DNA from: Diadema setosum
Lineage: Eukaryota > Echinodermata > Echinoidea > Diadematoida > Diadematidae
Direction: 5' to 3'
Length of the DNA: 64,000 bases
NCBI GenBank assembly: GCA_033980235.1
Contig: CM067067.1
Location: forward strand, 6,980,789 to 7,044,788
The translations under genes and the position numbers were made by a program. The notes under the pieces were generated by a model, which saw only the letters and a list, made by a program, of their open reading frames with translations, was not told the DNA's origin and ran no database searches. Positions 5,880 through 62,442 of this stretch are shown in pieces; the first letter of the stretch is position 1; each line of letters starts with the position of its first letter.

Positions 5880-5952
5880 ATGGATAACAGATACAACCTC
5901 GTTCTGTTAATAACATTGGCCTCTTCCGTGTTTTGTGGTGGCGATACAAAAG
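5880..5952 (+). CDS. Receptor exon 1: signal peptide
   Basis: ATG at 5880 opens 24 codons ([20 protein letters not shown], then GDTK) with a classic signal-peptide pattern: a polar N-terminus, hydrophobic [12 protein letters not shown], then small residues. It ends in a near-consensus donor (AAAAG|GTAAGT) in phase 1, matching the phase-1 acceptor of the first Ig exon at 17814. The exon could instead serve another spliced gene, but no competing downstream exon was seen in the 12-kb intron. Confidence 0.6.
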
Positions 5953-13835: not shown

Positions 13836-13866
<31 letters not shown>

Positions 13867-16800: not shown

Positions 16801-19800
16801 AAATCTTGTGCACTAATTTGTGCATCGATTTGTCAAAATTCACCTAAAATCTACACAGAGGCGACTGTGTGTGGTGTTCTGCCATAATACCACTCGTTAC
16901 ATAGGCAGTGGGAAACCGGGTGAACTTTGAGCTTAGCACGTCTTGTGCAGAAAGATGCATTCGCATTCAGTAGGTGGGGGCGGCGTGACAATGACTAAAC
17001 AATGTTATAAATGATAGTCCACAGTATACAATGTGCTTGTAAACACCAATGCGAAGTACAGCATGGGCACACTGCTCCATTCTGCTAGTGCGTTATGTTT
17101 TGTAGTGGCGCATATAATTTTTTTTTTCTTGGTCATGTCGAACTAACAAATAATTTAAGAGTGCGCTGACGCGTCACGATTACGGTACACTTACGGATTG
17201 TTGAGGTATATCGGATATTCCTATTCATTGCAACGATATACTTGCAGGATTTTAATTTTTGTCTTTTATTTATCAACCTTTTTCGTCATGCTTCCTCTTT
17301 GGAGTGCACGGTTGTACTTCCCTGGTGATAAACAGGAAGCTTTTTAACAGCAAATAAAGTGTATTGTATATATGTGGTGGTTTTGAATTAGTGGGATTAG
17401 TTGCAAATTATGAATCATTCGTAACTCCGAAAGTTCGTTAATCAGAAAATGAAATTGGGTCCTTTAATCCGATCATAAATGTGATATTTTTCTTAAGCTT
17501 CCCGATTCCGAAAGTTGGTTCATTAGAAAATGAAATCAGGTTTGTTATTCCAAGTGTTCGATAGTTCATCTGAAAATTATATCAGTTTCTTTTTTTCACA
17601 GGGTTCATTTATACGAAAAAGAAAGAAGGTTCGATATACAGAAGATTATTTCCATTAAAAATGAAATATGGTCAATTAATAATCACCATGTCAATGTCAT
17701 GGCATCAATAAGGAAGCTGCACAATTGGGTAAAAAAAAAAAAAAAAAAAGCTGTAGGTACAAATAGTCATCCATACATGCATTGCACTCTTCTTGCATTT
17801 TTTATTTGTATAGCCTCTGTAGTGGGCACTGTCCCTTATGTTCGAGGATGGAAAGGAAGAGACATCCGACTGCCGTGTGACATCCAGGGGGAGCCTGTGT
17901 TTGTTAAATGGGTCAAGGAGAGCATCTCACCTCAGCAGACAAGGTCGATAAAGGCTCAGTCCATCGAAGGGACGAGAGAGAGCTTGGAGGAACGTTTTGA
18001 CATCGACAAGGATTTCAGCCTCGTTATCAGTAACTTAGAGGTGGCAGATGAGGGTCGGTACTATTGCCAAATGGGGCAAAGCAATTTGGAAATTTTCGAG
18101 ACCTCCACCCTATTAACGGTTAGCTGTAAGTAACTCCTTGTCATCAGGATGACATTGTAGTTAAATCTTTGAATTTAGGGAAATCACAAGAACGTTAAAA
18201 AAAAATGTTCTTCGGACGGTAATGGGTATGGGAAGGTAATGGGATTAGGGAGAAATTGCAGGGGACTTGTCAGCAATCTTTTTTGACACGGCATCTCAGC
18301 GATTAATGTATAATGATGAGTTAATAATCATTTTGTTTTGTTTCGGGGGAGGGAGTGTTGGTCTGCTCCAGTAATTCTACTTTTCTGAAAATCATTCGCA
18401 ATCTCGAGGTCAACAGTTCAACAAGGCAAATACGTGTAAGCTGTCTACGATCGATCGAACTGTAGGTATGGCAGTAAACTCATTCAACGCCACTGCTTCG
18501 CACTTAAATGTACTATAACATGCATTTTCGGCACTGAGATGTAAACGTTTCTATTTTGAAATTTACCTTGCATTTGCGCATTGTAAAGTTATAAAAAAAA
18601 TGTCATTTTTCTGACTGATATTTGGTCAACTTGGTCTCAGTGCCAATTATTTATCATAAACATATGAAACAAAGTTTTATAAAGCATATGGATGATAAAT
18701 CCACTGTTTCTTTTCGCCCTGGGCGAATACACTCAGAAAATAAGAAGGTAATTTTACGCATGAGTGAACACATTCATTTTTCACGTCCAAAGCACAAAAT
18801 TAAAAATTGCAAAAATGAACAAGTTGTCATTCATACGTATGTGCTCTTCCATGCAACAATTACAGCAAAAGACAAGCCAAAACAATAAAAAAAGAATACT
18901 AATCAAGTCTCAAAAATCATTTTATGATCACTACAATAAATTTGTAGCCCGAAACATAAGGATTGGCAAAAAAATGATAGCGAAAATTAAGAATCTTCTG
19001 TCGGATCCAAATTCAAATGGCATGAAAGAGGCAATATAAACACAAAATGGCAGAAATTTTAAGTGTTCTTTCAAAATAAGAAATTTGAAAACAATATTTG
19101 GTTCTTGAATTTGTCTCATGAATCCTTAAATCCCTAATCTAAATGATGAAATAAAGAAAGTCTGTCCATTTTATCACCTTTGCGGCTTACTGTCCGTGTC
19201 TTTTCAAGTTAGATTCGACAGAAAACTCTTATTTTTCCCTTTTAGTTTCCCACTTTACTTGTGTTTGAGGACATAAAGAGAAACAAGGGGACGAAAAGTT
19301 AGTTTTGCTATTTCATTCATGTCTCTCATTTTGTTAAATTTGGTCTTTTGTTTTCATTGCTTTCATGAAGGGCGTTTGCAAATGGACGACAAAGTGTCAA
19401 TTTTTGAAATTTTTACTTTTGTGTCTAGAAAGACAAAAATCAATGTGTTCACTCATGCATAAAATTTCTCTTTGTATGAAGCTACCAGGTTGATAACCAA
19501 TTAAATAATCTTTAATATGGTATATGACACAATGATTTTGATCAAAATCTTCTATGAAAACTATATGCTGAAAAAATGTTTACTTTCTTTTTTCTTTTCC
19601 TTTTTTTTTTGCTGAGTGTAGTTTTAACCTACAGCCCTTCGAAGCGATCAATGATTATGATTATAGTAGTATAATGTTTTGCAATTGATTTACATGTACG
19701 GGAAGAAACACATGCATCTGATGGTGGCTTTGTCTGCAAAATTGTGTGTTATATATAAGCTAACAACCATTGAATTTTTACCTTTTTTTTTGCATGTTCA

Positions 19801-20009
19801 GAGAGACCGCTTCATTTATTATTATCCCCTCACCTGAGTGACGCCTATCACGTTCCCCGTACTCATACTACCTTTGAAAAGAAAGCGTTTATTTACTGGA
19901 CCCAAATACCGGAATGACATCCCTCAACATATCATTTCTACCTTATTCACCTTCATACGCAAGTTAAAACAGTATAGAGGATGCACCCTACCAGGCTTTT
20001 ATTTTTTTG

Positions 20010-20067
<58 letters not shown>

Positions 20068-23000
20068 TAATAGTAATAATAATAATAAGGTTTTATTTAC
20101 CCAGGGTAGCCTCTTCAGTGTTGCCACTGCTCTACCAGAGACCCTGCCATTATTATTACCCTAGCGTTGCCAGGTACCCATTTATACACGAGGGACATGG
20201 TGGGAAAAACATCTTGTCTAATAACGTAAGCGTCTAACTCGGGTCCTCCGATCGGGATTCGGGAGTCGTATCCAATATGCCACAGCGCCCCTCCCCCCTT
20301 CCAAAAAAAAAAAGAAAAAAAAGAAGAAGTTTTAGTTATTTCATGAATAGTTGACTTTCAGATTATAGTTCTCAGATTTCATGGTTACTAATCTCCCTTG
20401 TCATTTATTAGCCCCTGAGGGTGTGTCAGTTCATCTTTGCCTTCCATTATGAGTATTGAATGATCCCGCATTGTATTATTTTGTCACTATACTATTTATA
20501 ATTCAATGTTTTTCTTGTCCGGTACAACTTTTAAAATCAACATCACTCTTTTTAATACGCACTGATTTCTGAGTAACAATTTGACATTACATTCTTTTTT
20601 TTTTAAACATGACGAAATTTGTATTGTTTGGTCCAAATTATTGTACATGTTTATAGATTAGTTTCTTCTTTATATTGATTTTGGTACTGGAATGAGATAA
20701 ACATATCCATCCTCCGTAATAACGCCACCCCTATATGATTTTCGGGACCTAGAGTGTCACAAGCGTTATAGCTTTTATGTAGGCCCCATCATATTCAGAT
20801 TGATATTTCTGCTATTTCCTTGTTATATCTTATTATCATGATATAAACATGAACATTTGTCTTCAGTATGTTATGTCCCCCCCCCCCTCTTCGATCAATA
20901 GACATGCTTGTATACATTTTATAGTATTCTTGTTGTATGACTGAAAATTATTTTGTAATTTCTTTGAGAAAGTGGAAAAATGAAACAAATTGAACTGAAC
21001 TGAATCTGGAGTTACACAAACAAGAAAATGGTGGCAACAAAAATAATGTTTCTTCTCCAATGTATAAAAAAATCGAAAACAAACAAGCAAAAACACTGTT
21101 TAAACCTGAACCCCATTGAAGATGATATCATAGATCTGTCATATATATTTTCTTTTCTAGGTATGCGTGGCAGGTTTATCATCTTCTGAGCATAATTTAC
21201 GCTATACTCTCATTTCCGTACAGCAAACCATATCTTAAAAATATGACTGCGTCAGTTGACTTGTCGAGCAAATATTTGAATTTGTAAATACCGCGATTTT
21301 CATTTCATGATTATTTTTCTGTTCTCCTAGCTATGACAACACAGCATAAAATCGAGGAATGCGTCGATAACAGCCAGTCCCATCAGAGCCGTTGCACATA
21401 CAAACCTCCCTTCAACACACCTTCCCTTAACCTTACATGTGTTGTGAGCGGATTCATACCTAACATTTCGATGTCGTGGACCGATGAGTTTGGAAAGAGA
21501 CTAGATTCAACACTTTCGCGACAGACCAAACTAGATAATGACACTTACAAGAGAGTCGAGACAATCACTCTTCCATCTAAACATGGGACAGAGCAAATCT
21601 TCATGTGCATAGCTACCGGTGACTCGCTGAATGGAACGTCGACCAAAGATATCACTCTTCTGCCTTTATCAGGTTTTTTTTTAAAGAGTTGCCATTTATT
21701 TTGTTGGTGCATCGTCTTTTGTCTAATCACAGTAAGCTAGTTTCTGCCGACAATATCGAAATGTTTCTAAAAAAAATGATGAAAGAAAACTGTCAATGCG
21801 GTTTTAGATTGTACTTTACCACGGGAATTTTATTCTGAGTGGAGGGTTTGAAGAAAAGAATTTTCTTTACGACACAATCAAGCATCAGGATTAGTATGGA
21901 GAAACATACATTCAAGAAAGTAAATGAATTTTGCCAAATAAAGACAATGGCTTGCAAGACAAGTGTTTCAGTTTTTCGCGATGTGTCTCTGGAGAAAGGG
22001 AATTGCAACAATGCGTATAACGCCTATAACCTAATAGTAAAATATGTCACATCCACTACGCAAAACGAAAAAGAAAAAAAAAACGGTTTTGTAAACTCAT
22101 TGCTTTTAATTTTTATCAATAGGTTTCGTGTTGTCTAAATGTAACTATGAATGAATGACGCCTTTTCGCTGTATTTTCATATTAAGTTTCAGGAAAGCGT
22201 GATAATCTTGGACTCATCATTGGACTAGGTGTAGGCCTGCTTGTTGTCGTGTCCTGTATAATTTCTCTTGTTGGAAAGTTTCTGCAAAATTACTACCCGG
22301 ACCTCCTCCCACAAGAAGGTGTTAATTTGTGATTTTAATTTTTTTTTTTACTGTTTTATTAAATTGTTTAAATTATCCTTGAAGGTCAGTAAAAATGGAG
22401 CGGGCTAGGATGAATCTTACAACAATACTCTGTCCAGTCGTATTCATATCATCGAAATTGTGCTAAATAACCATTTTCTGCACAACAATTCCGTCAGAGA
22501 CTTAAACTAAATGCAGACAATGGCAATGTAACGTTATGATAATAATTCTGGTATCCATCAGAAAGTAATAAAGAACAAAAAATCCCGTTCCATAATGACA
22601 GTATTTATTATTATTATTATTATTATTAATAATTATAATAATAATAATAATAACAATAATAATAATAGTAATACTAGTAATAATAATACTATTAATAATA
22701 ATAACACATATGTGACCGTGCACCTCAAAACGAACATAAAGTCGCACACACTGATTTTGCGTGAGGACTGGAAATAAGTAAAATGGGTCAACCTAACCGA
22801 ACTTGACTTTTTCATATTTTCTGAAAGAGCGGGTCTTCTTTTACATTATGCTAAAATTTGGTATCATAAAACGGGCAGGAAAGTGTGTGTGTGTGTTTTT
22901 TTTTAGCAGTTTATCTCAAACATTTTTGGTAGAATAGTGTGATTAGGTGTGTCTTTAGAATCCCTTTTTCTTTTCTGAAAAACCTTGTCCACACTTTTCA

Positions 23001-23411
23001 CTTTCAACTCTAATAACTTTTGAAAGGATAGTGCTACTGCTTTGAAAGTTGGCATTAATTATGGACAGAATGTGTTAATGAGGCACGCTTAATTTCAGTT
23101 TAATTTGATAATCCCTTCATTGTTGTTACCCTGGTGGTTTACTTCCTGTTTTTTGTCCCATTCATCGCACAGCCAGCACGGTCTGGTAAAGATTAAAGCG
23201 CTTCAATAGACACTGTACTTCAGAGCCTCTTTTCTCAGTTCACACTTTTCCCGAGTTTGTGCTTTTTTTCCAATATTTAGATAGGTTAGGAGAGTCCATT
23301 TGATTTGAGTTATACATCATTTTAAAGCTTAAAGTCTGCTCTTTCAGAATATGGTCTTAACTAAAAATTCATGTCTGGCGACTTTTTGTTTGTTTTGAGG
23401 TGCAGGGTCTA

Positions 23412-23446
<35 letters not shown>

Positions 23447-23451
23447 GTATT

Positions 23452-23486
<35 letters not shown>

Positions 23487-26500: not shown

Positions 26501-26562
26501 ATTTAAAAAAAAAAAAGCCAAACATTATCTAGATGTAAGTAAAAACAAAAAGGGGGAGTAAT

Positions 26563-26597
<35 letters not shown>

Positions 26598-26717
26598 ACG
26601 CACAAGCACGCAGACATTGCAACATATGTCGCAATGAGCAGGCAGAAGAGCGCTTTCTAGCCCTAAGTGAAAAAAAAAAGGAAGGAACAATTAGAGTAGC
26701 CTCATGATGCAACGTTT

Positions 26718-26748
<31 letters not shown>

Positions 26749-35700: not shown

Positions 35701-36782
35701 GAACGAATCATCGACATGTTTGATAAAAAGGACAGGGGATACAACGATCGCCATGTTCAGCAATTTGTGGAAAGGCATACCAGTCGCCGTTACCCGCTCT
35801 TGGACCCTAGCCTTGTACAGGAACAGTTTGCACGTGCCTTTTATGGGAGACGATGAATTATTTAACGTATATTAGAAGAATTATTTTGAAACAGTTATTT
35901 GTGAAACGATTAGTTTGCAACGTCATTTAAAGTTGGTACGTTGTAGCATTGAGTATTCAGAAATTTAATCGCTGTTTCGTGATAAGCAGGATATCGTTTT
36001 ATTTTTTTTTATTTTTTTTTTTATGACAAGGTAAAGCACTAACGCATAACTGTTCTTATCTTTCTGATTTTTATGTAACGTTAGCATTCAGAAGAGAATG
36101 TCTCTAGCCGATATTGGACCTACTTATAGTTTGCAGGAGTAAAAAAAAAAACAAACAAACAAACAAAAAAAAAAAACAAAAAAATAACAACAATGAAAGT
36201 CGGAAAAAAAGTAGCGTACCACTATATTGTATGTCCATCTATTACTCATTCGTAAGAGCAATCCGCGTTGTTTCGAGCTCTGTATTTGTATCAATAAAAA
36301 AAAGAAAAAACTGCAGAAGGAATTTTGTACCTAGTGTAGTTTGTAATTTTGTCGTAAGCAAATAAAAATCAATAGTTTAAGTTCGATATGTTTCTTTCAA
36401 TAATGTAAGACATATCATCTTTGTCTGATATATTTTTTTTTTTGAGAAGCGTAGGTTGTAAGGAGAAAAAAAATGGTTTTTAACGTTACCTTTTATTTTG
36501 TTGTAAGCGAATAAAAAAAAATCCTAGATCTTCCTTTTGTATTAGAATCTCGATTACTGTTGCGGTCTAATGATCCTCGTTGTTCTTCATTTTCTTTTTT
36601 TTTTTTACTGTTAAGTGAAAAGCTGTTAAAGAAATTTTGTGTCTAACATAATTCAATAAAGGCGATTGGTTCGCTTATCATTCTGTAAGATTTGTGAGAA
36701 AGAGTCGTTATTGCATTTGTGTCTTCACGCGATCTTACATTATGTCGGATAATCTCATGTCGTGTCATGCCTTAACAGCTAA

Positions 36783-36816
<34 letters not shown>

Positions 36817-57800: not shown

Positions 57801-60800
57801 GTTGCAGGTTTAAAACGATTTAGTGTAAATGGACTGGAAGCAAACACTGGGAAATGATCAGACATATCCGAAACTATTATACCTTGATCAGTTGGATAAT
57901 GAATATTAGTGAATATATTATCAATAATTGTATACGCTGAATCAAATATTCTGGTAGGTTTAGTTATACACGGCGTAAAAGCATATGAAAAAATAGTGTC
58001 CACAAAATCCTGGCAGCAGGGCTTTTCGTGATACTGCAGTAAATCAAGATTGAAATCCCCCATTAAAAAACAATGTTTATTATGCAAAGACTCAGAATTC
58101 AATACGGAATTCAGTACATCAAAAAAAGCAGTATGATTACAGTTTGGTGGTCTATAAATCTCACCAATCAAAATATTCTTTCCAGCTGGTATGTCGATTT
58201 CAATAAAAATGCTTTAAAAATCTTCAGTCATATGACATAAATTCTGAATCAAATTAAAATTGAATCCTTTCTGAACATAAAGAGCCACACCCCCTCCATG
58301 TTTATTTACTCTATTATTAAACACAAGAGAATATCCATTCAAATGAACTAGGGGAAATGACACGTCAGACAGCCACGTTTCGCACAAACCTATAACAGGA
58401 AAATCCACAATCATGTGGATCATGAACATCACTTTGTTTTGTTTCTTCTTGTTTTCTGCAACACAAATTGTAAGAATCTGTTTTATATCGTGACATGAGA
58501 TACATAAACAACCATTAATTGGCCTGGATGTGGGAAAAAGAAGAGAGACTTAACTGACTGTGTGTAGGCCTACTTCGGCAGTCTAGGTTGATGCGACTGA
58601 TGCAAATTATATTGTACACACTCTTTATGTGGTCTCAGTAAATAATTATGATGATGATTATAATGACAATTATTATCATGATAATAATAATAACAACATT
58701 AATCAATTATAATAACAATGATATTAACAATATTAACAACAATAACACTCAGGTCTTCTTTATCCAGGGTAGCCTCTTCAGTGTTGCCACTGCTCTGCCA
58801 GAGGGCCCTGCCATTATTATTACCCTAGCGTTCTAGGCACCCATTTAACACATTTGGGTCGAGAGGGACATGTTATGCCTAAAAACATCTTGTCCAAGGA
58901 CGTAAGGACTGGGTGGGAATCGAACCCGCGTCCTCCGATTTGGAAGCCGGGGGTCTAATCCACTACGCCACAGCGCCCCCACATGTGCTTTGTTTATTAC
59001 TATAAATGTTGTACCATCATTTATGAAGTTCCAAATAGAAACAAACACAAACAAAGAAAATGACAGTAACTCTGTTAGGTGACTTGTAATATCAAAATAA
59101 GTGTAGCGGGACGAAGGTATAGATGTTAAGTGTTAGGTGAAAATGAAAGTAAATCAATAACTTTTCTTTGTTTTAATCTTGAAATCTTTATTAACTCTTT
59201 GGAACTACTATACTGATGGTGCTTATTGCCAACAAATGCCCGTACATATCACGATGGATACTTGTTCAGTGCTTCTGCCTCAACAATGGCCATGTGTAGG
59301 GTCTACTTTATATAAATCAATCATGATTACTTTATTTCATTAATCCGATTCGTGTTACTCCTTGATTTTTTTTTTATTTGTACAGATTCAAGATTTGGAG
59401 TTGTCTTTTACCAGCTGGGATGATGGCTCTCATTTTCAATCCTCGATGGGGGGTGACTTGGCCAAATGGGTATTCACTATGCCAAATCTTTCGAGCTTCC
59501 GTGTGACATGCCCCTACCTGGACGGTGCATTTCTCTCAACAGCGGCCGCCTCAGCAGCATCATGTCAGGTATACACCTTGCACTATACATGATTTACATT
59601 TAGCGACTATTATTATCATTTGTGTGTATGTGTGTGTGTGTGTCTGTGTGTCCAAATATTCTCTGTTTCTAGGTTACTCATTTCGTTTATTATTTAGTCT
59701 GCCGACCGTCACTGATTGGGTTGTACTTCCTTTTATATATATATGGCTCCTGCGAGTACAGTGCACTCCCGTTATAACGAGCACGGTTATAACGAAATTC
59801 CACTTATAACGAAGTAAAAGTTCAGACCGTAACCTTATCCGCTCTATGTATTTCTATTGTTTATCTGTTCGGTTATAACGAAATTTCGATATTTTCTGAA
59901 ATAATATCTGAAACAAGAGAGAGAGAGAGGGAGGGATAGAGTAAACATTTCAATGTGGGGAATTGTTTGATCATCCTCCTGTGATGATGCGTGTAACTGT
60001 TCCATGGCACATTCCCGGTCTCCACTTTTACATTAACTTTAATATCAGTACTGATAAGGAAAGATGGATTCTTCAGATTTCACCATTTTTGCCCGACATT
60101 TCTGTTGGTTAATTTCGTATTCTACAGATACAAAACCTGACGTTTATCACTGACAATTGGAACACCAATGCAGCAGAATATGCGTCGTCTGTGGAAAAAG
60201 ATTTCGCTGTGTGTTTGTGTACTATGCCACGTCTTTCAAGCTTCAGTTTCGAATGCAACTTCTTGCCAGCAGATGATTTCTTCTCAACAGCCGCAAAACT
60301 GGCCCAATCCTGCAAGGTATGTCACTTTTAACTGTGCACAGTGAAAAGATGTATCAAAGTATCTCTCCCTATCTCTCTCTCACACTACATATGTATTTTC
60401 CTATTTTCCTATATGTTATGTATTATGTACGATGGCTGCATGCAAATCAAGCAATGCTTAAGCTGTAGCCCTTCTGTTTAATTCATTGCATCGATGATAT
60501 GTTTTGTTGTACATTGTAAATGCAATGAAGAGACTGTATTGCTCTATCATTATCCTAAAGGCAATGAAAAAAAAAACTTACTTTGTTAACAATGTTTATG
60601 TACAATATATACATTGTACATGTATGGCACCAACATATATAATACAAATGTATGTATCTGCATGAGCAATGATATAATGCAGGAAGCAATAAATGAAATC
60701 GAATCAAATTAAATCAAATCAAATCAAATCAAATCAAATCAAGTCAAATCAAATCAAATCAAGTCAAATCTAATGATATAGCTTCCTTCTGAAAACATTG

Positions 60801-62442
60801 ACCGTCATGGTGCATCATTTGGCTTTAGAGGTAAATCGTTTGTTTCGTCGCTAGTGAGCTTCGTCAGGTACATTTTAGCATTTTTGTCCAAATACCGTCG
60901 GAACAAGTAAATGCATCACTCCCTGTTCTTTTGAATACAGGTCAATTTTTTACATAGCTTATAAAGCATGAATAGGTCACATATACGATTAAAGTATTGG
61001 TTCCTATGAAGTATATGGCCTATAAGTAGAGTTCAGGTTTGCTATAATTTAAAAAAACGTCTCAGACTAGTTTTGCATAGTGTCCTTAATACTATAGGCG
61101 AAAACATAAAAAAGGACAATGGTGCTTTTCCTGTCTACTTGTATAGTATATCAGTTGCTGTGATTTTTTTTTTTTTTTTTGGGGGGGGGGGAGGGAGGGG
61201 TAGCATAAAAAATCCAATCCTGCTTGAATATCATATACTTGGAATCACAAAGCAAGCACTTTACGGGTAACCTCTTTAAAAAACAGTAATAGGCAATGAA
61301 TATATTCATCTACGTCACTAATTTGCATAAAATCAACAGGAAAGAAAATGGGGTCGCTAATTTCAAAACCAATCGAACGTTGCACGGACCGATATAACGT
61401 GAGGAATCAAAATAGATGAAATGGGTCGAAATAATCTGATAACCCCTTCATAATCCTTATTGTGGACTTTAACATCTTTTGTTTTATCTTAGCTTAGGAT
61501 TAATGTTTGAACTTTCATTTCAACCTCATAATTTTTCATATTAAGAAACCCTAATCCAAGTTGACACCAATCAAACCAAACCCCCTCCCCCAAAAAAGAA
61601 ACAACAACAAAATCAAAACGTTTACTCCAAACTTTATATAATGGTCAGAAAGCTTTAGTCACAGCTGCTAAATGCCCGAAGCTGACCAGGAGAAGCCCCC
61701 ATAATACTTTGATGGAAGTACCGAAGATGTAAAGTAATTTTGCAATGTGTTAATCAGACAGTCCTCGATTTTTCTATCCCTTTTCCACCTGTAATGCCTG
61801 ATTTGTGTCTTCTGTCACGTCTATGGCCCTGTTTCCGATTTGATTTTCATTCAATCATTAATTCATCGTGTGAAGGGAGACCACAGTAGCAGAATGACCC
61901 CTTTTTTATAATAATTATGTCATACTACTCATTCTTTTCAGGATTCACGATTAGAAACGATTATTGACCAGTCATTTAATAAATGATATTTTGCTGCTGC
62001 AATAGTTTCAAACAGTCCTGCTGCATAGAATTCTCGATGCTAATGCCTCATATCGTTCTTGTGCCATTTTTAGGAGAGTAATGCTTTTTCTCTATAAAGA
62101 AATGTCTTTTTTTTTCAATGAGTCGATGGATTTTATCACTTACAAAAGTAATAAAAATACGTGACAAGGACAGGCCGGATATAAGATGTTTGCTTGAAAG
62201 TGTATGTATATTTGTTTGTGTTTCTCTGTTTGTTTGTTTGTTGTTGTTGTTGTTGTTTTTTTTTTTTATAGATCCGTGATCTCTCGGTGGTGATTGACAG
62301 GGATCGGATTTCAGAGCCAGGAGCAGCAAACTTTGCTGAATTTCTGTGCCGTATGCCCCTTCTTGAACGTGCCTGTTTCACATGTGATACCCTCCCTAAG
62401 ACATTCTTCGCGAACATTTCTTCAGGGGACATAAGCTGTAGA
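5880..62442 (+). CDS. Gene model: Ig-Ig-TM-NACHT-LRR receptor (10 exons seen, 3' end outside window)
   Basis: Proposed joined exons: 5880-5952, 17814-18125, 21331-21672, 22193-22318, 23997-24071, 44158-45707, 54756-54917, 59386-59568, 60128-60316, 62272-62442. Every junction has GT/AG borders. The first five introns are phase 1 and the rest phase 0, so one frame of about 1,061 residues stays open. The order is signal peptide (1-20), IgV-like (25-128), Ig (129-242), TM (248-269), short tail, NACHT (Walker A 393-400, Walker B near 467-476), then LRR-like repeats from about 820. This is a type I membrane protein with a cytoplasmic NLR-like module, presumably an immune sensor (inference). The largest intron holds a whole Polinton. 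The last exon ends with a GTGAGT donor, so more exons follow. Joining of exon 1 to the Ig exon across 11.9 kb is the least certain step. Confidence 0.7.
6576..7436. mobile_element. MITE with GGGCCGAATGCATAAA ends and many AGCAATTGCT palindromes
   Basis: The left end GGGCCGAATGCATAAA (6576-6591) is matched inverted at 7421-7436. Just inside both ends, and again around 6650-6740 and 7210-7370, the sequence repeats AAGCAATTGCTT and near variants such as AGCAAAAGCT. No transposase ORF is present. The element is non-autonomous; superfamily not recognised. Confidence 0.7.
8387..8892. mobile_element. Long-TIR MITE (CAGTCCAAATATAA ends)
   Basis: CAGTCCAAATATAA at the left is mirrored by TTATATTTGGACTG at the right, with slight divergence. 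Further matching blocks (TAAGGAAGTTATGA / TCATAACTTCCTTA; AATATGCAAATGA / TCATTTGCATATT) make the arms well over 100 bp. No coding capacity. Confidence 0.75.
9400..10291. mobile_element. Mariner/Tc1-like non-autonomous element
   Basis: The ends CAGGGTGGCCCAGAAAGGAC (9400) and GTTCTTTCCGGGCCACCCTG (ending 10291) are inverted repeats extending about 50 bp, through a shared ATGATCTTTAATTTCAGC-like stretch. TA dinucleotides flank both ends (9398-9399 and 10292-10293), as expected for TA-targeting elements. Internal second-level inverted segments (AACTGAGAATATTACTGTGTC near 9465 and its mirror near 9765) are visible. No intact transposase. Confidence 0.75.
10640..11400 (+). mobile_element. Degenerate LINE reverse-transcriptase relic
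   Basis: Plus-strand translation gives [14 protein letters not shown] (the catalytic A/F-A-D-D motif region), then [20 protein letters not shown] and a GN-H-like segment. All are typical of the C-terminal half of CR1/Jockey-type RTs, interrupted by stops and frameshifts. No tail or TSD identified. Confidence 0.65.
11960..12395 (+). repeat. Satellite array of ACCCTAAATGTAATA-type units, block 1
   Basis: Degenerate units of about 15-20 bp such as AACCCTAAATGTAATA, ACGACCCTAAATGTAATAC and TTTTAACGCTAAATG recur more than 20 times. Although it contains CCCTAA, the period is not 6 and this is not telomeric sequence. The same units resume at 15113 after a LINE insertion. Confidence 0.8.
12397..15108 (+). 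mobile_element. 5'-truncated CR1/Jockey-like LINE inserted in the satellite array
   Basis: The coding relic starts with [16 protein letters not shown], continues as the open stretch 12518-12826 ([20 protein letters not shown] region) and resumes at 13926-14273 after a foreign insert. The join point is mid-RT, at a short motif (Y-G-x-L-V-W-G) typical of this region. After about 0.8 kb of 3' UTR it ends at an AATAAAG signal and a (TTGAA)n tail (about 15088-15108), then satellite units resume. The internal stop after the TYW-like region marks it as dead. Confidence 0.75.
12824..13925. mobile_element. Helentron/HINE (pearl/Tsp-like) element with about six 156-bp tandem repeats
   Basis: Inserted within the LINE RT. 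The left end has a hairpin (GTGCTCGGC ... GCCGAGCAC, 12834-12861) and TGTATCCCCCGAAC (12863-12876). The right end has the inverted copy GTTCGGGGGATACA (13910-13923), itself the arm of a terminal hairpin beginning GTATCCTCCGAAC (13894). The core holds about six units of 154-156 bp starting at 12899, 13055, 13209, 13365, 13521 and 13677, then a (CGG)n tract at 13836-13864. This layout (short subterminal inverted repeats, hairpins, central minisatellite) matches what is described for pearl elements in bivalves, Tsp in sea urchin and HINEs. It encodes no protein. Confidence 0.7.
15113..15310 (+). repeat. Satellite array, block 2 (same orientation as block 1)
   Basis: Units such as CGACCCTAAATGTA and TTTTAACGCTAAATG continue directly after the LINE tail. 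Blocks 1 and 2 were therefore one array before the LINE inserted. Confidence 0.75.
16185..16500 (-). repeat. Satellite array, block 3 (opposite orientation)
   Basis: TATTACATTTAGGGTTG-type units are the reverse complement of blocks 1 and 2. Separated from block 2 by about 0.9 kb of unremarkable AT-rich DNA. Confidence 0.75.
17814..18125 (+). CDS. Receptor exon 2: IgV-like domain
   Basis: The exon encodes one full V-type Ig domain (model residues 25-128). It has the first Cys in RDIRLPC (C46), the core Trp in VKWVKE (W57), and the hallmark D-E-G-R-Y-Y-C (C109) after a [10 protein letters not shown] strand. Phases are 1-1, the usual shuffling phase for Ig exons. The acceptor is TTTTTTATTTGTATAG|CC, the donor T|GTAAGT. 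Alternative: an ATG at 17778 reads through the pyrimidine tract as [17 protein letters not shown], which also looks like a signal peptide. A separate promoter could start here, but a poly-A run and splice consensus favour splicing from upstream. Likely role: ligand or pathogen recognition outside the cell (inference). Confidence 0.85.
18126..21330 (+). other. Receptor intron 2
   Basis: About 3.2 kb. It contains an (AAT)n tract and SINE copy (20010-20295); the rest is AT-rich, with short open frames (for example 18622-19039) lacking any recognisable domain. No host exon seen. Confidence 0.6.
20010..20295 (-). repeat. tRNA-derived SINE copy with (TTA)n tail
   Basis: On the minus strand it runs from a degraded tRNA-like head near 20290 (GGGTCCTCCGATC region) through the conserved body to an (AAT/ATT)n tail at 20010-20090. 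It is more diverged in the head than the copy at 58640-58980. Confidence 0.7.
21331..21672 (+). CDS. Receptor exon 3: second Ig domain (C1-like features)
   Basis: Phase 1-1 exon of 114 codons (residues 129-242). The core is [18 protein letters not shown] (C165, W178) and later [10 protein letters not shown] (C221), with a C-to-C spacing of 56 typical of constant-type domains. The stretch [10 protein letters not shown] resembles the C1-set consensus around the FxP turn. It lacks the D-x-G-x-Y-x-C of V/I sets. Two extra cysteines (C139, C150) precede the domain and may form a local disulphide. Potential N-glycosylation sites are NLT, NIS and NGT. The acceptor is TGTTCTCCTAG|CT; the donor CAG|GTTTTT is weak but in phase. 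Reading on would append a second hydrophobic stretch ([17 protein letters not shown]) before a stop at 21740, so intron retention could give a different membrane tail. Confidence 0.8.
21673..22192 (+). other. Receptor intron 3
   Basis: About 0.5 kb. Besides the possible retained-intron tail up to 21740, nothing recognisable is seen. It ends in ATTAAGTTTCAG|GA. Confidence 0.6.
22193..22318 (+). CDS. Receptor exon 4: transmembrane segment
   Basis: Exactly 126 bp, phase 1-1. It encodes KRDN followed by [20 protein letters not shown] and LVG, then K-F and a Tyr-containing tail ([11 protein letters not shown]). The 22-residue hydrophobic run with Gly/small residues (248-269) is a single-pass helix with a charged residue on each side. 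Acceptor TTAAGTTTCAG|GA, donor GAAG|GTGTTA. This short exon fixes the topology: Ig domains outside, NACHT inside. Confidence 0.8.
22319..23996 (+). other. Receptor intron 4
   Basis: About 1.7 kb. Contains an (ATT)n/(AAT)n palindromic tract (about 22602-22705), interrupted (TA)n tracts (about 23409-23530) and a poly-T run (23677-23696). No gene seen. Confidence 0.6.
23997..24071 (+). CDS. Receptor exon 5: short cytoplasmic linker
   Basis: A 75-bp phase 1-1 exon: [20 protein letters not shown] then ELMM. The acceptor CCACATGCAG|GA and donor ATGG|GTATGA are good. The Cys/Trp/Arg-rich start just after the TM fits a juxtamembrane segment. The next exon is 20 kb away because the Polinton lies between. 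As a very short exon it is supported by phase and splice sites rather than by homology. Confidence 0.6.
24382..24387. repeat. Polinton target-site duplication, left copy (ATTTCT)
   Basis: ATTTCT directly precedes the left terminus AGTAGATAGGGGA. The same six bases directly follow the right terminus. Six-bp duplications are the hallmark of Polinton integration. Confidence 0.95.
24388..25162 (+). repeat. Polinton left terminal inverted repeat
   Basis: Starts AGTAGATAGGGGAGTCG and ends ACCGGACGCGTGT. Matches the right TIR with a few substitutions and two short indels. It contains two tandem 72-bp units (about 24669-24812) with TATGAGATAATCGATTGCAA. Several ATCGATTGCA motifs are scattered along it. 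A GAGAGAGGGAGAG purine tract is near 25030. Confidence 0.95.
25312..25346 (-). terminator. Histone-type mRNA 3' end signal: stem-loop plus downstream element
   Basis: On the minus strand the stem-loop GGCTCTTTTAAGAGCC (25346-25331) is followed by ACCACACTTT and then CAAGAAAGA (25320-25312). The stem-loop fits the known replication-dependent histone consensus GGYYYUUHUHARRRCC at all 16 positions. ACCA and CAAGAAAGA at this spacing match the sea-urchin histone downstream (U7) element. It lies 21 nt past the stop codon of the 73-residue leftward gene. No poly-A signal is needed for such an end. Function in this element is inference. Confidence 0.85.
25367..25588 (-). CDS. Small leftward Polinton protein, proline-rich, unknown function
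   Basis: 73 residues from the ATG at 25588 to TAG. The N-terminus [14 protein letters not shown] is followed by two proline tracts (SPPPPAP and a nine-proline run before DEERR), then a beta-prone C-terminal half ([14 protein letters not shown] ... [14 protein letters not shown]). A TATAAATA box lies 45 nt upstream, the same spacing as for other genes of the element. A histone-type 3' end lies 21 nt downstream. Both flanking signals argue that it is real, although the protein resembles no histone and I do not recognise it. The overlapping plus-strand frame (25326-25697) is a shadow. Confidence 0.6.
   Translation of the reverse strand: MSVVVKEEPHTRRSPPPPAPVREMQAPPPPPPPPPDEERRSFFVTVHRGVAELTLSGGVTLTMSTPVSITFNS
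25633..25640 (-). promoter_or_regulatory. TATA box of the leftward small gene
   Basis: TATAAATA on the minus strand, 45 nt before the ATG at 25588. Spacing matches the TATA-ATG distances at 26825, 29192 and 32395. Confidence 0.65.
25664..26345. repeat. Three direct repeats of about 212-217 bp between divergent Polinton promoters
   Basis: Copies start at GTCTGGACGAGA: 25664, 25876 and 26093. The third is diverged and interrupted by an 18-bp C run (26127-26144). Each good copy has TTTGCAAAT (25807, 26024) followed by CCCAATGG (CCAAT box at 25824, 26041). Short minus frames in each copy are shadows. The location between a leftward and a rightward TATA gene suggests a regulatory or replication region. 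Confidence 0.8.
26346..26824. other. Non-coding stretch before the first rightward Polinton gene
   Basis: Contains a (CA)n tract (about 26562-26605) and a short poly-A/(TA)n tract (about 26716-26751). No gene recognised. It ends at the TATA box of the 26866 gene. Confidence 0.6.
26825..26832 (+). promoter_or_regulatory. TATA box (TATATATA) of the 241-residue gene
   Basis: TATATATA in GGCTATATATACGAGG, 41 nt before the ATG at 26866. Confidence 0.65.
26866..27591 (+). CDS. Polinton protein of unknown function (241 aa)
   Basis: ATG at 26866, TAG at 27591. The first 90 residues are low-complexity and acidic ([14 protein letters not shown]). A more ordered middle ([20 protein letters not shown], about 132-151) leads to [20 protein letters not shown], then a helical, charged, coiled-coil-like stretch ([20 protein letters not shown]) and a basic tail. 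The [11 protein letters not shown] segment has the look of a PC4/ssDNA-binding-type strand pattern, but I cannot assign it. First gene of the rightward series; a 164-nt gap separates it from the next ATG. Confidence 0.75.
   Translation: MGTLLSAPANHSSLNTQIMHEPESAKFSPSASEVAGQHLPNRDRFQTHSPQMYGSLLPAPRYGEEDADDEQVVPTYADDVSRPESGVPEEGENPLYIHENADYPHPNSPEAMAIFPQGEHGYSLGERGRFAVVQTLGFGVYVSIREYYQRMNSNGILQWYPTKKGIHLRGDEWKDLIMNITAIDGKVREMEKRHKAQFKKLEERFVKKRSSVQFHPMNRPAKRITPASLPPVSLHGKAHSL
27755..28168 (+). CDS. Small Polinton protein with a Cys/His cluster, unknown function (137 aa)
   Basis: The first ATG in this frame is at 27755; the frame is open upstream to 27698 without ATG. The start [20 protein letters not shown] then LC gives a C-x2-C-x10-H-x2-C arrangement that could bind zinc. 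The rest is mainly helical and acidic-to-neutral, ending in [18 protein letters not shown] do not recognise the family. Position between the 241-residue gene and the ATPase suggests an early or accessory role, but nothing proves it. Confidence 0.65.
   Translation: MNTKVPCTGCEEDFPSQVDHLCLNYGDGFEDEEHEREEYVRQAVCKLENCFENMEKDALLERWKEVAVLKDVCPARTPAYFNNDFIGQLAEKVLDLFLTEPRLCIELYETGNLKHTPELRKHVRKLILGTVFDCGGL
28169..29191. other. Non-coding gap in the Polinton
   Basis: About 1 kb without a supportable gene. Contains a G run (28324-28342), AATAAA-like signals at about 28311 and AT-rich DNA. The minus frame 28741-28962 has no recognisable features. Confidence 0.55.
29192..29198 (+). promoter_or_regulatory. 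TATA box (TATATAA) of the ATPase gene
   Basis: TATATAA in GCATATATAATCTTG, 43 nt before the ATG at 29235. Confidence 0.65.
29235..29876 (+). CDS. Packaging ATPase (FtsK/HerA, A32-like)
   Basis: 213 residues from the ATG at 29235; an upstream extension to 29205 has no ATG. Walker A is GPSMSGKT (15-22) and Walker B is LLILDD (86-91). It is followed by [19 protein letters not shown], the sensor-like T-Q-N typical of Polinton and NCLDV genome-packaging ATPases. The C-terminal [15 protein letters not shown] segment is also usual. The enzyme is expected to pump element DNA into the capsid. Length is normal for the family and no break is seen. Its TGA overlaps the region of the next gene's TATA box. 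Confidence 0.95.
   Translation: MDVTIKTPFRMILAGPSMSGKTTLIRKLLENGEIMFDRQFVKILWCYGQYQGETFAKIKSEVPNVEFHKGLPEDIHTHFDTSRPNLLILDDLMADASRDERVTKLFTVYSHHLKASVALLTQNLYHRGSQSRSISLNADILILTKNTRDRSQIQYLARQLAPDRPKFIQESYQDATSSPYGYLFLDLKPETPEQLRVRSGIFPGELHVAYLRK
29878..29884 (+). promoter_or_regulatory. TATA-like box (TATAAAG) before the 134-residue gene
   Basis: TATAAAG immediately after the ATPase stop, 63 nt before the ATG at 29948. Confidence 0.5.
29948..30352 (+). CDS. Small basic Polinton protein with a Gly-rich hydrophobic segment (134 aa)
   Basis: An N-terminal helical region holds an [14 protein letters not shown] motif (38-51), then a Lys-rich stretch ([17 protein letters not shown]), then [20 protein letters not shown] and [11 protein letters not shown], ending in an [14 protein letters not shown] tail. 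I recall small ORFs of this type (an E-I-C-N-V-L-G start and a K-G-G-F-L-P-L-L hydrophobic patch) as common in animal Polintons. The hydrophobic Gly/Pro patch followed by a polybasic tail would suit a membrane-active or core virion peptide; that is inference. Confidence 0.8.
   Translation: MTKLLERNAPFLEVLARGTRKQKHAILKGAGDDLCRCLAEICHNVLHGCLNLTSRETSKLKKHKAEIRALGDRKVSLTKKKKIVRQKGGFLPLLAAPILGILGDLVVGGIKKAVARGKRRRAAARHKRGMKNKK
30387..31097 (+). CDS. Conserved-type Polinton protein, unknown function (236 aa)
   Basis: ATG at 30387, 34 nt after the previous stop. The N-terminus [14 protein letters not shown] and the helical [20 protein letters not shown] then [12 protein letters not shown] block are features I associate with the Polinton protein lying just before the integrase. 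The middle part ([13 protein letters not shown] ... [20 protein letters not shown] ... [12 protein letters not shown]) is followed by a basic, disordered C-terminus. The pattern GAL(V)PGTHALDLI looks conserved. Probably structural or DNA-binding; no catalytic motif is visible. Confidence 0.75.
   Translation: MNNAKKMVLVPQEIAQQFSQSHHSTQQPTYQGLDNLDAQMQAILRRGDMPLDQKVKLYQQALLGYINLHQKLNQPIAVTVQDVENAHTHNQELQSLPKWEDEVMEGISKSLRGKGKRLVRLIQTEGGSELTFNHKGELLKNGALVPGTHALDLIKDVLSKSRAGKTRPRGWREFALALSHLNPPRDLIADGASWEMMHPESLHEEEKLSGPTPRKSMRGKHKREKTTWDWISQYPD
31291..32382 (+). CDS. Integrase with C-terminal chromodomain-like region
   Basis: 363 residues. The retrovirus-type catalytic core has D79 (WQIDLVDLS), D140 (HADQGTEF) and E174 (SIVERFNRT), with 33 residues between the last two. 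Before it is a short N-terminal region without a clear HHCC finger (only H12/H16 and no paired cysteines seen). After the core is an SH3-like segment ([11 protein letters not shown], 249-259) and a chromodomain-like end ([20 protein letters not shown] through WPEKFSAW, 320-352). It inserts the linear element DNA, giving the 6-bp duplication seen here. No disruption. Confidence 0.95.
   Translation: MSTEKELSKIYHDVKHPGSFGGVENLYQAAKRDGIKVTRGQVKEFLQSRPTYTKHKPLRRRFRRNRVYSHGIDFIWQIDLVDLSRFSRFNKGYKFILTVIDVFSKYAWTVPLKNKTGVTLVKAFKHILKDGRYPYKVHADQGTEFTNRNFQALLKENDISFYTTHNETHASIVERFNRTIKTRIFRYFTDRNTKRYIDVLQDFVNTYNKRKHSSIAMAPSEVTDETELKVWNTLYGNRGTKTSSGKRYKFKVGDHVRISMLARPFKKGYLQGWTDEIFKIIKRLPRVPPVYRVSDLMDEELHGTFYAEELQKVRVEEDEYFPIEKILKTRKRQGVKEYYVKYLNWPEKFSAWTADVKRLRGPL
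32395..32400 (+). promoter_or_regulatory. TATA-like box (TATAAG) of the minor capsid gene
   Basis: TTTTATAAGGAG, 36 nt before the ATG at 32436 and 13 nt after the integrase stop. Confidence 0.5.
32436..33218 (+). CDS. Minor capsid protein (penton-like single jelly roll)
   Basis: 260 residues. The start ([20 protein letters not shown]) is followed by [20 protein letters not shown] and a L-V-D-A-T-F-P-x-W-Y-N segment, the typical opening of Polinton minor capsid proteins. Alternating beta strands continue to the C-terminal [12 protein letters not shown]. The protein is expected at the capsid vertices. First gene of a very tightly packed cluster (6-nt gap to the next). Confidence 0.9.
   Translation: MSGTATNQDSFFLTLPSNSSMGEFPDNTLTHFKVKLPHPVHLSGEYECALVDATFPTSWYNLVTTDEHPTKSSVIYREGDHVFEKKLKEGYYPTIRSLINEIRPQGEERAALAEGCQITVMERAEKIMFDFHEGCQLILNGRIARMFGFESDYKEITGRVIPPRTFSLNTIDNLFIYTDILEHEIVGDSRAPLLRVVNVENRGGVQISVQYDSPHYKRVQTKVFDTVEIDIRDGTGESIPFTRGTLILTLHFKRRAPSYL
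33225..33401 (+). CDS. Very basic 58-residue protein, core/condensing type
   Basis: ATG at 33225 just after the mCP stop, TAA at 33399-33401. The sequence begins [20 protein letters not shown], followed by KKKK, then [15 protein letters not shown] and an Arg/His-rich end ([15 protein letters not shown]). More than 40 percent of residues are Lys, Arg or His. It resembles in character the small DNA-condensing core peptides of adenoviruses; no direct homology is claimed. Its stop is followed by the next ATG with no gap. Confidence 0.7.
   Translation: MAKRGKTARKQRGHKRRSHKKKKKLGATMLRAIRLVRRIEGNKRHRASRRRQHRKHPI
33402..33980 (+). CDS. Basic virion-core or membrane-lytic type protein (192 aa)
   Basis: The start can be the ATG at 33402 (adjacent to the previous TAA) or the in-frame ATG at 33462 ([14 protein letters not shown]). 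Key region [20 protein letters not shown] is followed by [13 protein letters not shown], a Gly-rich turn and an amphipathic segment that I recall as recurrent in the gene just before the Polinton MCP. Then come Ala/Lys-rich helices ([17 protein letters not shown]) and a long basic tail ending [10 protein letters not shown]. Character is like adenovirus pVI/pX-type minor proteins (inference). Confidence 0.8.
   Translation: MRANHPLNVSRLSAREINTMELVSPAEYTDYHGWRQRGRGLPVFKGAPYQRGHGFGGILSSLFRLAIPAGRAAITSGVRALPKLGKIGGKALAKTALKRALPAIRKNAPKLAREAVNAGIESGIQFAVDKLAKKKKATRKRKHRDAGETVRRKIARRESIKSSRRSHARHSRKKAVKRHTSSSKQKFDDIFD
33986..35323 (+). CDS. Major capsid protein (double jelly roll, hexon-like)
   Basis: 445 residues, the usual length for Polinton MCPs. 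N-terminal [20 protein letters not shown] and [20 protein letters not shown] are typical openings of the first jelly roll. [20 protein letters not shown] and [14 protein letters not shown] follow. The second half has the [20 protein letters not shown] strand pair and ends with [20 protein letters not shown]. Forms trimeric capsomers. Intact; its TGA is 2 nt from the protease ATG. Confidence 0.95.
   Translation: MGLVHENSCPCTTSALDLFTVPPTQLTVEDGYAVDYHPIANIDSGPIEFFVSGSGSEYIDLAKTYLQVKAKVVKSNGTDLAATDKVAPVNLFMQALFSQVDISLNEKIITPSMPTYPYRAYADVMLNYGPAALKSLYTMSLFHRDTPGKLDVTEPEPDADDAEENEGLNARYHYVKNSALIDMISPIHADLFFQPRYLINGVDLRVKLIRHKDAFSLMTNTPASGYRVKIENCTLFVRKIKVSPSTALTHERALEKATAKYPIDRVVTKVISVPAGQMSLQQDHVFLGQLPKKVIVAMVDNRAFNGNYGKNPFNFQHFNTNYLALDVDGKLVPSKPFQPDFEGTKGEQYMREYYTLFSELNKLEAQPELYISRDDYAKGFTLFAFDLSPTGNSEGSFALRKNGNLRLDIHFKDPLPSAINILVIGTFENVIEIDRARNILYDFSV
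35326..35856 (+). CDS. Adenain-like cysteine protease (maturation protease)
   Basis: 176 residues from the ATG at 35326. The catalytic set is visible in order: H53 ([10 protein letters not shown]), D69 (EVFDSYG), Q101 and C108 ([14 protein letters not shown]); the Gln-Cys spacing of 7 is as in the adenovirus protease family. The role is cleavage of precursor capsid/core proteins. It ends the rightward cluster. The start is set by the first ATG after the MCP stop. Confidence 0.93.
   Translation: MYSKDIDRALRNDKRTSPVFAGVYPSDMLPMGKITYPSAFVVNLDSRHQKGSHWIAIFFDKSGKSEVFDSYGKRPLPPAITTFLRRHTLSGNARHNTTQLQSFFSTVCGAYAIFYIMHRTRGIPMERIIDMFDKKDRGYNDRHVQQFVERHTSRRYPLLDPSLVQEQFARAFYGRR
35857..37857. other. 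Convergent 3' region between protease and polymerase genes
   Basis: AT-rich, no gene. Several AATAAA poly-A signals on the plus strand (about 36288, 36360, 36509, 36654) follow one another, as if serving multiple rightward transcripts. A long interrupted (CA)n tract lies at about 36784-36975. The open frames over it are repeat artefacts. Confidence 0.6.
37858..42491 (-). CDS. Protein-primed family B DNA polymerase (pPolB), two exons
   Basis: ATG at 42491. Exon 1 is 42491-38780 and exon 2 is 38597-37858, giving 1,483 residues in frame. Residues 1-130 are acidic and low-complexity. A Cys (about 286) and His (about 386) with [14 protein letters not shown] and DEHYATI motifs look like an OTU-type fold. 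A Cys-rich zinc cluster follows (about 403-517). Exonuclease motifs are YDFE (615), HNARGYD (694) and YCHSDVD (819). [13 protein letters not shown] lies near 931. Polymerase motif A DVCSLYP begins at 1041; motif [13 protein letters not shown] spans the splice region and starts at 1244; motif C YDTDS has D1342. All catalytic residues are present. This is the replicase of the element. Confidence 0.95.
38598..38779 (-). other. Intron (182 nt) in the polymerase gene
   Basis: The donor CCCAG|GTGAGAG at 38780/38779 and acceptor TATATACAG|GATTG at 38598/38597 are strong. Removal in phase 1 restores a Gly codon just before polymerase motif B. Without splicing the protein stops after ALKSF and lacks motifs B and C. 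Confidence 0.9.
42721..42727 (-). promoter_or_regulatory. TATA box (TATAAAA) of the polymerase gene
   Basis: Minus strand GGGCTATAAAAGGGG, about 230 nt before the ATG at 42491, implying a longer leader than in the rightward genes. Confidence 0.65.
42916..43693 (-). repeat. Polinton right terminal inverted repeat
   Basis: Inverse copy of 24388-25162; 778 bp against 775 bp, explained by two small indels near 43170-43195. Includes the same pair of 72-bp units. Ends TCCCCTATCTACT. Confidence 0.95.
43694..43699. repeat. Polinton target-site duplication, right copy (ATTTCT)
   Basis: Identical to 24382-24387. Confidence 0.95.
44158..45707 (+). CDS. Receptor exon 6: NACHT NTPase domain and helical region
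   Basis: Acceptor TCTTTCCAAG|AA in phase 1, matching exon 5. The pre-NACHT segment has [18 protein letters not shown] and ITYEDLL, common in invertebrate and fish NLR-type proteins. Walker A is GEGGVGKT (model 393-400). Walker B is [14 protein letters not shown] (D471, D474). The sensor is VTSRPW (R507). Winged-helix-like [12 protein letters not shown] follows near 719. No death, CARD or PYD effector domain precedes it; the TM exon takes that place. It ends in phase 0 at CAAGTG|GTGAGT. Reading on gives a stop at 45735. An alternative donor at 45675/45676 (TCAG|GTATTG) is phase 1 and would not fit the LRR exons. Confidence 0.92.
48440..49680 (-). mobile_element. Second L1-like LINE 3' fragment nested in the first
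   Basis: The host LINE RT breaks off after [10 protein letters not shown] near 49690 and resumes at [19 protein letters not shown] near 48440. Between them are C-terminal ORF2 pieces of another copy (49636-49361; 49351-48977 with [20 protein letters not shown]), same orientation, followed by its 3' UTR. Boundaries are approximate. Confidence 0.7.
51496..52636. mobile_element. Foldback/MITE element inserted between LINE ORF1 and ORF2
   Basis: The ends CCCCCATCTCACTAG (51496) and CTAGTGAGATGGGGG (ending 52636) are exact inverses. Subterminal GGCGAT-rich and TGGTCGCCATGGTCG-like motifs are also mirrored. A perfect 24-bp-arm hairpin lies at 51639-51694. No transposase. A C/G run at each end blurs the TSD. 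Confidence 0.75.
54756..54917 (+). CDS. Receptor exon 7: first LRR-like repeat
   Basis: 54 codons, phase 0-0. The acceptor GTGCCCATCAG|AAA has a weak pyrimidine tract; the donor is TGTCAG|GTATAC. Encodes [20 protein letters not shown] then [15 protein letters not shown] and ends KASTCQ. Together with the end of the NACHT exon (FMVHCNQV) it forms the L-x-x-C-x-x-V-x-S-L-x-I pattern found at the start of LRR arrays in invertebrate NLRs. The final S/T-C-Q and donor match the following LRR exons. Confidence 0.7.
55135..58560 (-). mobile_element. CR1/Jockey-like LINE, degenerate
   Basis: Minus-strand pieces in order: endonuclease N-part 58432-58214 (GLCETWLSD ... [11 protein letters not shown]), endonuclease C-part 58171-57323 ([28 protein letters not shown]), RT 57266-56733 ([38 protein letters not shown]), 56679-56407 ([22 protein letters not shown]) and 56353-55637 ([11 protein letters not shown]). 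Ends at a poly-T run about 55137-55160. Broken by several shifts and stops. Confidence 0.88.
58640..58980 (-). repeat. tRNA-Gly-derived SINE, fullest copy
   Basis: The minus-strand head (58980 leftward) has a tRNA-like region with a B box (GGTTCGATTCC type) and an anticodon-loop-like CTTCCAA, as in tRNA-Gly(TCC). The family body follows, then an A/T-rich trinucleotide tail at 58640-58750. Not a functional tRNA: the acceptor and A-box parts are degraded. Confidence 0.75.
59386..59568 (+). CDS. Receptor exon 8: LRR-like repeat
   Basis: 61 codons, phase 0-0. Acceptor ATTTGTACAG|ATT, donor TGTCAG|GTATAC. Encodes [14 protein letters not shown] ... [20 protein letters not shown] and ends SAASCQ. 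The MP-x-L-S-S-F core recurs in the next exon. Confidence 0.82.
59569..60127 (+). other. Receptor intron 8
   Basis: About 0.6 kb. Includes a (TG)n tract (59620-59650) and, at 59759-59895, a pogo/Tigger-like terminal sequence (CAGTGCACTCCCGTTATAAC with repeated GTTATAACGAAAT). Confidence 0.55.
60128..60316 (+). CDS. Receptor exon 9: LRR-like repeat
   Basis: 63 codons, phase 0-0. Acceptor TATTCTACAG|ATA, donor TGCAAG|GTATGT. Encodes [20 protein letters not shown] ... [20 protein letters not shown] and ends LAQSCK. Closely parallels exon 8. Confidence 0.85.
60317..62271 (+). other. Receptor intron 9
   Basis: About 2 kb. Holds an (AATCA)n tract (about 60706-60772), a poly-T/poly-G run (61166-61190) and a (TTG)n/poly-T tract before the acceptor (62228-62270). 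No exon seen. Confidence 0.6.
62272..62442 (+). CDS. Receptor exon 10: LRR-like repeat (last visible)
   Basis: 57 codons, phase 0-0. Acceptor TTTTTTATAG|ATC, donor TGTAGA|GTGAGT. Encodes [14 protein letters not shown] ... [20 protein letters not shown] and ends GDISCR. The good donor shows the gene goes on past the window or further right. Confidence 0.82.

Follow-up and report, generated by a model that had tools for sequence, protein, structure and literature searches.

A predicted Ig-TM-NACHT surface receptor gene of the sea urchin Diadema setosum, with a Polinton in its longest intron and possible C-terminal LRRs

Background

In the textbook view, NLRs are cytosolic sensors. In the sea cucumber Apostichopus japonicus, a protein named AjNLRC4 was described in 2021 with an Ig-like domain, an Ig domain, a transmembrane (TM) segment and a NACHT module, and was placed at the coelomocyte membrane (PMC8699970). 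The published account reports that its Ig domains bound microbes and polysaccharides and mediated formation of a dimer, that its inner part bound beta-actin and that its knock-down reduced phagocytosis (PMC8699970); another report has the Ig part binding caspase-1, upstream of MLKL cleavage (PMC11932488). A further protein of the same species, AjNLR-new, is presented as a membrane protein of 1197 residues with Ig, TM and NACHT parts (PMC13133943). From another sea cucumber, Chiridota heheva, six NLRs with other domains including the V-set have been listed, and its authors state that they found no V-set in the NLRs of sea urchins (PMC8913654). More distantly, NLRs with predicted TM domains are mentioned for the sponge Dysidea avara, with a citation to Amphimedon (PMC12909245), and in the description of a ctenophore genome the V-set and NACHT are counted as separate domains, with no combination given in the sections that deal with them (PMC11797021).

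Here we analyze a window of 64,000 nucleotides of Diadema setosum (contig CM067067.1, positions 6,980,789 to 7,044,788), within which we find a predicted gene with an N-terminal Ig ectodomain, a putative membrane span between the Ig domains and NACHT, a NACHT module C-terminal of that span and no death-fold domain recognized by Pfam. The preliminary description of this DNA had known of no standard named family with this order of domains, a statement overtaken by the Ig-TM-NACHT receptors published in sea cucumbers since 2021, namely AjNLRC4 and AjNLR-new, with which the present gene belongs by architecture, as compared from the published descriptions. We propose that the locus is a single gene for a type I single-pass NLR with a signal peptide, two Ig domains, one TM segment, a linker, a complete NACHT and probably degenerate LRRs, a reading to which we give a probability of roughly 0.8. 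What the locus chiefly adds is the Polinton behind its giant intron, the possible LRRs and a doubt over the second membrane span reported for AjNLRC4.

Results and discussion

Nine exons in one open frame

Nine plus-strand exons between 5880 and 62442 (Table 1) splice into a single stop-free frame of 1007 codons, with the predicted order of signal peptide, Ig V-set, second Ig domain, TM segment, linker, NACHT and three related LRR-like exons. The first six (5880 to 45707) give 826 residues without a stop, and the three LRR-like exons lengthen this frame to 1007 residues. The exons lie at the positions first proposed for them: an AG acceptor precedes every exon but the first, a GT donor follows all nine and the frame stays open throughout. 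The five phase-1 junctions that had been described recur in the spliced model, and three of the four phase-0 junctions are likewise joined; the remaining one would use the donor at 62442, for which the joined model contains no partner exon. Scored with splice-site matrices, the eight acceptors fell within the best 0.2-8% of AG sites overall and seven of the nine donors within the best 0.06-9% of GT sites; the other two donors, those of the second Ig exon (21672, top 28%) and the TM exon (22318, top 13%), were weaker. A tblastn search with the 1007-residue model recovered no further copy below E 2 in the window, besides its own exons and cross-matches among the LRR-like ones.

Table 1. Exons of the proposed receptor gene and mobile elements in the window
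Feature	Coordinates	Strand	Remarks
Candidate first coding exon, signal peptide	5880..5952	+	donor CAAAAG/gtaagt, phase 1; least secure exon
Ig V-set exon (Ig1)	17814..18125	+	phase 1-1; Pfam V-set 2e-13 for 17777-18124
Second Ig exon (Ig2), C1/C2-set-like	21331..21672	+	phase 1-1; weak donor
Transmembrane exon	22193..22318	+	phase 1-1; 19-residue hydrophobic core
Cytoplasmic linker exon	23997..24071	+	phase 1-1; spliced model
Polinton/Maverick	24388..43693	.	terminal inverted repeats, target duplication and Pfam frames; 19.3 kb
Polinton DNA polymerase B	38739..42608	-	Pfam DNA_pol_B_2 4.5e-35
Polinton retroviral-like integrase			Pfam rve 3.4e-14; chromodomain match slightly under cut-off
Polinton A32-like ATPase			Pfam Pox_A32 3.1e-8
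Polinton adenain-like protease			Pfam Peptidase_C5 1.2e-4
NACHT exon	44158..45707	+	acceptor phase 1; donor CAAGTG/gtgagt, phase 0; Pfam NACHT 2.6e-21
LINE-type ORFs	52701-53744, 57323-58213	-	Pfam zinc-knuckle and endonuclease matches
LINE-type ORFs	47654-49360, 62837-63409	-	by eye only
LRR-like exon 1 (possible LRR)	59386..59568	+	phase 0-0
LRR-like exon 2 (possible LRR)	60128..60316	+	phase 0-0
LRR-like exon 3 (possible LRR)	62272..62442	+	phase 0-0; frame still open at donor

The Ig-TM-NACHT core of this model is solid; its extreme 5' end is not, because the signal-peptide exon has look-alikes and an alternative start lies closer to the first Ig exon. The candidate exon is located 12 kb upstream of Ig1 and is one of eight plus-strand rows, beside six on the minus strand, that pass a loose filter for signal-peptide exons, among which its donor is the best (7.7 versus 4.4 for the next). 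The alternative is an ATG at 17777, in frame with the Ig1 exon and 37 bases ahead of its acceptor, which could begin an alternative first exon and supply another signal peptide.

The window has the character of eukaryotic DNA, with a GC content of 33-48% in 4-kb steps; its introns are long, and a number of mobile elements are present. LINE-type ORFs flank the NACHT and LRR-like exons and also occupy the space separating them, and a 156-bp tandem repeat of six copies with 94% matches (12890-13826) adjoins what by eye appear to be reverse-transcriptase fragments.

Ectodomain and membrane topology

While Ig1 is a clear V-set domain, Ig2 is marginal in Pfam, its scores for C1-set (22.2 bits) and C2-set_2 (21.6) lying just above the cut-off of 21 that applies to each. 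Compared with PDB sequences, the ectodomain finds mainly antibody chains among the best 60 of 3971 matches (top 2.8e-9). An AlphaFold (AF2) model of the Ig2 exon by itself reached a pLDDT of 73.5 and a pTM of 0.62; with Foldseek it had no match at E<=0.001, and the best 50 of 528 matches included no clear Ig domain, and hence the predicted topology is probably wrong and the model adds no support for Ig2. A six-frame motif scan of the window for more Ig exons gave Ig1 only, with a pattern that is blind to Ig2-like exons. The spliced protein has 13 N-glycosylation sequons, four of them in Ig2, nine after the TM segment and none in Ig1; those in Ig2 agree with an extracellular position, a weak point given the sequons elsewhere.

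The hydropathy maximum of the whole protein falls in the TM exon (residues 251-269, KD19 2.84), the call being one of hydropathy and not of a trained TM predictor. Among open phase 1-1 AG..GT stretches of 90-180 bp with equal hydropathy and splice scores no lower than the exon's own, thresholds thus set from the exon itself, it is the only one on the plus strand and there is none on the minus strand. Basic residues flank the segment on both sides, and its orientation is therefore taken from the signal peptide and from analogy. Eight residues past the 19-residue core, at 277, stands a YPDL motif; single short motifs frequently arise by chance, and this one is a possible uptake signal.

A second, lower hydrophobic segment is found at residues 566-584 (2.21; the next after that reaches 1.36), 178-196 residues past the point where the NACHT match in Pfam begins. 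HMMER aligns this stretch behind NACHT with part of NLRP2 and of NLRP3, which are soluble proteins. For AjNLRC4, the publication gives a second TM segment at 776-795 and a NACHT start at 600 (PMC8699970), which by our computation from these published numbers places that segment 176-195 residues past the NACHT start. Based on this shared position and on the alignment with soluble NLRP2 and NLRP3 we infer that the stretch behind NACHT, in both the present protein and AjNLRC4, may be a conserved helix following the nucleotide-binding domain and not a membrane span, as judged from sequence, and we accordingly favour a single-pass topology for both.

The NACHT module and the C-terminal exons

Of the 44 PDB sequences that the NACHT exon matches at E<=0.01, NLRP2 (3.5e-9) and NLRP3 (5.1e-9) are the best. 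The exon retains intact Walker A, Walker B and VTSRPW motifs, as well as one further motif of 11 residues. No CARD or other death-fold domain was recovered at E<=1 in a Pfam search of the Ig, TM-linker and NACHT exons, and a search of NCBIfam gave nothing useful. AlphaFold of the NACHT exon alone returned a mean pLDDT of 37.7, and this model was discarded.

In the usual order of NLRs, NACHT is followed by LRRs. Pfam gave no match to LRR families at E<=0.1 for the three exons downstream of NACHT. These are related to each other: in tblastn searches of the window with the protein, the first matches the second at E 1e-5, the second and third are 41% and 25% identical to the first, and 11 of 63 columns are invariant in all three (I, L, A, M, P, L, C, L, F, S, C). 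A profile of the three finds three PDB sequences at E<=10, all of them NAIP5 (E 0.097-0.2), aligning best around residues 1136-1178, which we take to belong to its LRR part. As the top single stretch reaches an independent E-value of only 7.1, this match is a hint rather than a proof. We consider it likely that the three exons code for degenerate LRRs of the NAIP/NLRC4 type. Past 62442, the ORF list of the window yielded no 3' end for this gene.

A Polinton in the linker-NACHT intron

The intron between the linker and NACHT exons contains a Polinton with terminal inverted repeats identical at 500 of 505 positions, including the first 417, and a 6-bp target duplication, ATTTCT, immediately outside each end. 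Its GC content is 45%, against 34-37% in the flanks. Four of the seven frames tested gave Pfam matches above cut-off (Table 1) and the other three matched nothing above cut-off. Among the latter, in the search for major and minor capsid proteins, are the frames 33977-35320 and 32400-33215; the former (33977-35323 with its stop, plus strand, 448 residues), which has no relatives in viral_contigs, is presumably the major capsid protein, by its place and size. Beyond the polymerase frame, and separated from it by 89 bases, comes a further ORF on the minus strand (37858-38649), which by eye looks like its continuation, maybe via a small intron. The near-identical terminal inverted repeats suggest that the insertion is recent.

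Within the Polinton we also observed a histone-type mRNA 3' end on the minus strand (25308-25351; Rfam RF00032, 37.3 bits with a cut-off of 34, E 2.7e-7). The stem starts about 20 bases past the stop codon of a small ORF on the same strand (within 25735-25367), which is proline-rich and by eye not histone-like; it is followed by CAAGAAAGA, which we take to be a sea-urchin U7 target, and TATAAATA stands upstream of the ATG of the small ORF. Such an end could put a gene of a transposon or virus on the S-phase route of histone mRNAs. A literature search on this point, judged partly by title, found nothing relevant. A stem-loop pattern match in one contig of viral_contigs (L001) lies in GC-rich sequence, lacks a visible histone context and was set aside as chance.

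Alternative gene models

The preliminary description had read Ig domains outside the cell, a single membrane span and a NACHT in the cytoplasm as parts of one gene, and this is supported by the open frame, the domains and the length of the intron once it is emptied of the Polinton. The same DNA could instead hold two adjacent genes, a membrane receptor with Ig domains and a short tail that ends with the linker exon and an NLR that begins with the NACHT exon: the linker frame, if left unspliced, stops after five further residues (...MMGMRNI*), an ATTAAA lies in the intron at 43783, and the two exons are 20 kb apart with a mobile element between them. This distance, however, is mostly a young insertion, for without the Polinton and one copy of ATTTCT the present 20-kb intron shrinks to 775 bp; the linker and NACHT exons were thus formerly neighbours, which favours one gene, and we rejected the gap as a sign of two. 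The join that had seemed to need proof most is in this way the best explained. Moreover, AATAAA and ATTAAA are both absent from 24072-24387 and AATAAA from the whole non-Polinton intron, the NACHT exon begins with an acceptor of matching phase and has its first in-frame ATG only at 44247, and in A. japonicus the same order of parts is described as one membrane protein (PMC8699970). We therefore regard two genes as improbable. That the Polinton itself supplied a part of the receptor was considered and rejected. Its recent arrival, 19.3 kb within an intron, might alternatively have silenced the gene and left a pseudogene; but all nine exons are open, the NACHT motifs are intact and an intronic insertion can be removed by splicing, and to this we attach very little weight.

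The single gene could also end soon after NACHT, as in AjNLRC4, with the exons at 59-62 kb forming part of a different gene or of an additional isoform. Unspliced at 45707, the frame meets a TAA at 45735-45737, the tenth codon beyond the donor, and ATTAAA (45916) and AATAAA (46673) occur downstream; the intron from NACHT to the first LRR-like exon measures 13.7 kb and carries opposite-strand LINE-type ORFs, Pfam recognizes no LRR in the exons in question, and AjNLRC4 is itself reported without one (PMC8699970). Nevertheless, the donor at 45707 ranks among the best 0.24% of GT sites, the three LRR-like exons are phase-compatible with it and mutually related, their profile matches, weakly, NAIP5 and nothing else in PDB, and NLRs usually carry LRRs after NACHT. 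On balance an end soon after NACHT appears rather unlikely, and we retain the gene model that extends to the LRR-like exons; an isoform reading through the donor at 45707 would end without them.

Proposed mode of action

By analogy with the sea-cucumber receptors, the outer Ig domains, with the V-set first, would contact microbial surfaces and a bound ligand would cluster the receptor. It may then be internalised, perhaps aided by the YPDL beside the membrane, and the NACHT part might power cytoskeletal uptake of microbes and possibly link to caspases and cell death. Oligomerisation through NACHT, as the preliminary description had it, is a hypothesis; the dimer reported for AjNLRC4 forms through the Ig domains. 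The Polinton would be a recent passenger, which expanded an intron of 775 bp into one of 20 kb. A chain that combines an antibody-like ectodomain with a complete NACHT, and perhaps LRRs, would join phagocytic recognition to NLR signalling.

More speculatively, the surface Ig-NLRs as a group might be full-length NLRs made single-pass, in which case the second TM segment given for AjNLRC4 and the inverted topology given for AjNLR-new would be mispredictions. Under this tentative and somewhat doubtful proposal the second segment of AjNLRC4 would be the helix behind NACHT and the error in AjNLR-new would concern the signal peptide, contrary to its authors' staining. Were it true, the Ig domains would sense outside, the LRRs would sense or autoinhibit inside and NACHT would cluster at the plasma membrane, amounting to an AND-gate of outer and inner signals.

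Comparison with known systems

The present gene model contributes an exon-intron structure for a class of receptors that, in the open-licence literature searched, is characterised in two sea-cucumber proteins, with no gene structure given in the passages that describe them. With AjNLRC4, cited under accession MN607598 in PMC11932488, it has in common the N-terminal Ig domains, the TM segment, the intracellular NACHT and, as far as the published descriptions go, the absence of a CARD (PMC8699970, PMC11932488). The ectodomain reported for AjNLRC4 has 482 residues, whereas that of the present protein has 250, and the reported AjNLRC4 has a second TM segment (776-795) and no LRR, in contrast to the one clear TM segment and three LRR-like exons found here. 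The shorter ectodomain and the LRR-like exons likely set the sea-urchin gene apart; the latter also raise the prospect that LRRs of Ig-TM-NACHT receptors have escaped notice, and the helix-like stretch behind NACHT gives reason to doubt the two-span topology of AjNLRC4. The topology reported for AjNLR-new is inverted, with NACHT outside and Ig inside, between two predicted TM segments (PMC13133943), whereas the signal peptide and single TM segment of the present gene predict the usual orientation.

The V-set NLRs of C. heheva, compared here by the domains listed for them, share the V-set with the sea-urchin gene. In sponges, the passages of the Dysidea report that concern Ig domains mention them with TIR and not with NACHT (PMC12909245). 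Canonical NLRs such as NLRP3 and NAIP/NLRC4 have in common with the present protein a NACHT with intact motifs and perhaps, through NAIP, the LRRs; they are cytosolic and carry an N-terminal death-fold effector domain, whereas the D. setosum protein, in which no such domain was found, is predicted to lie at the cell surface.
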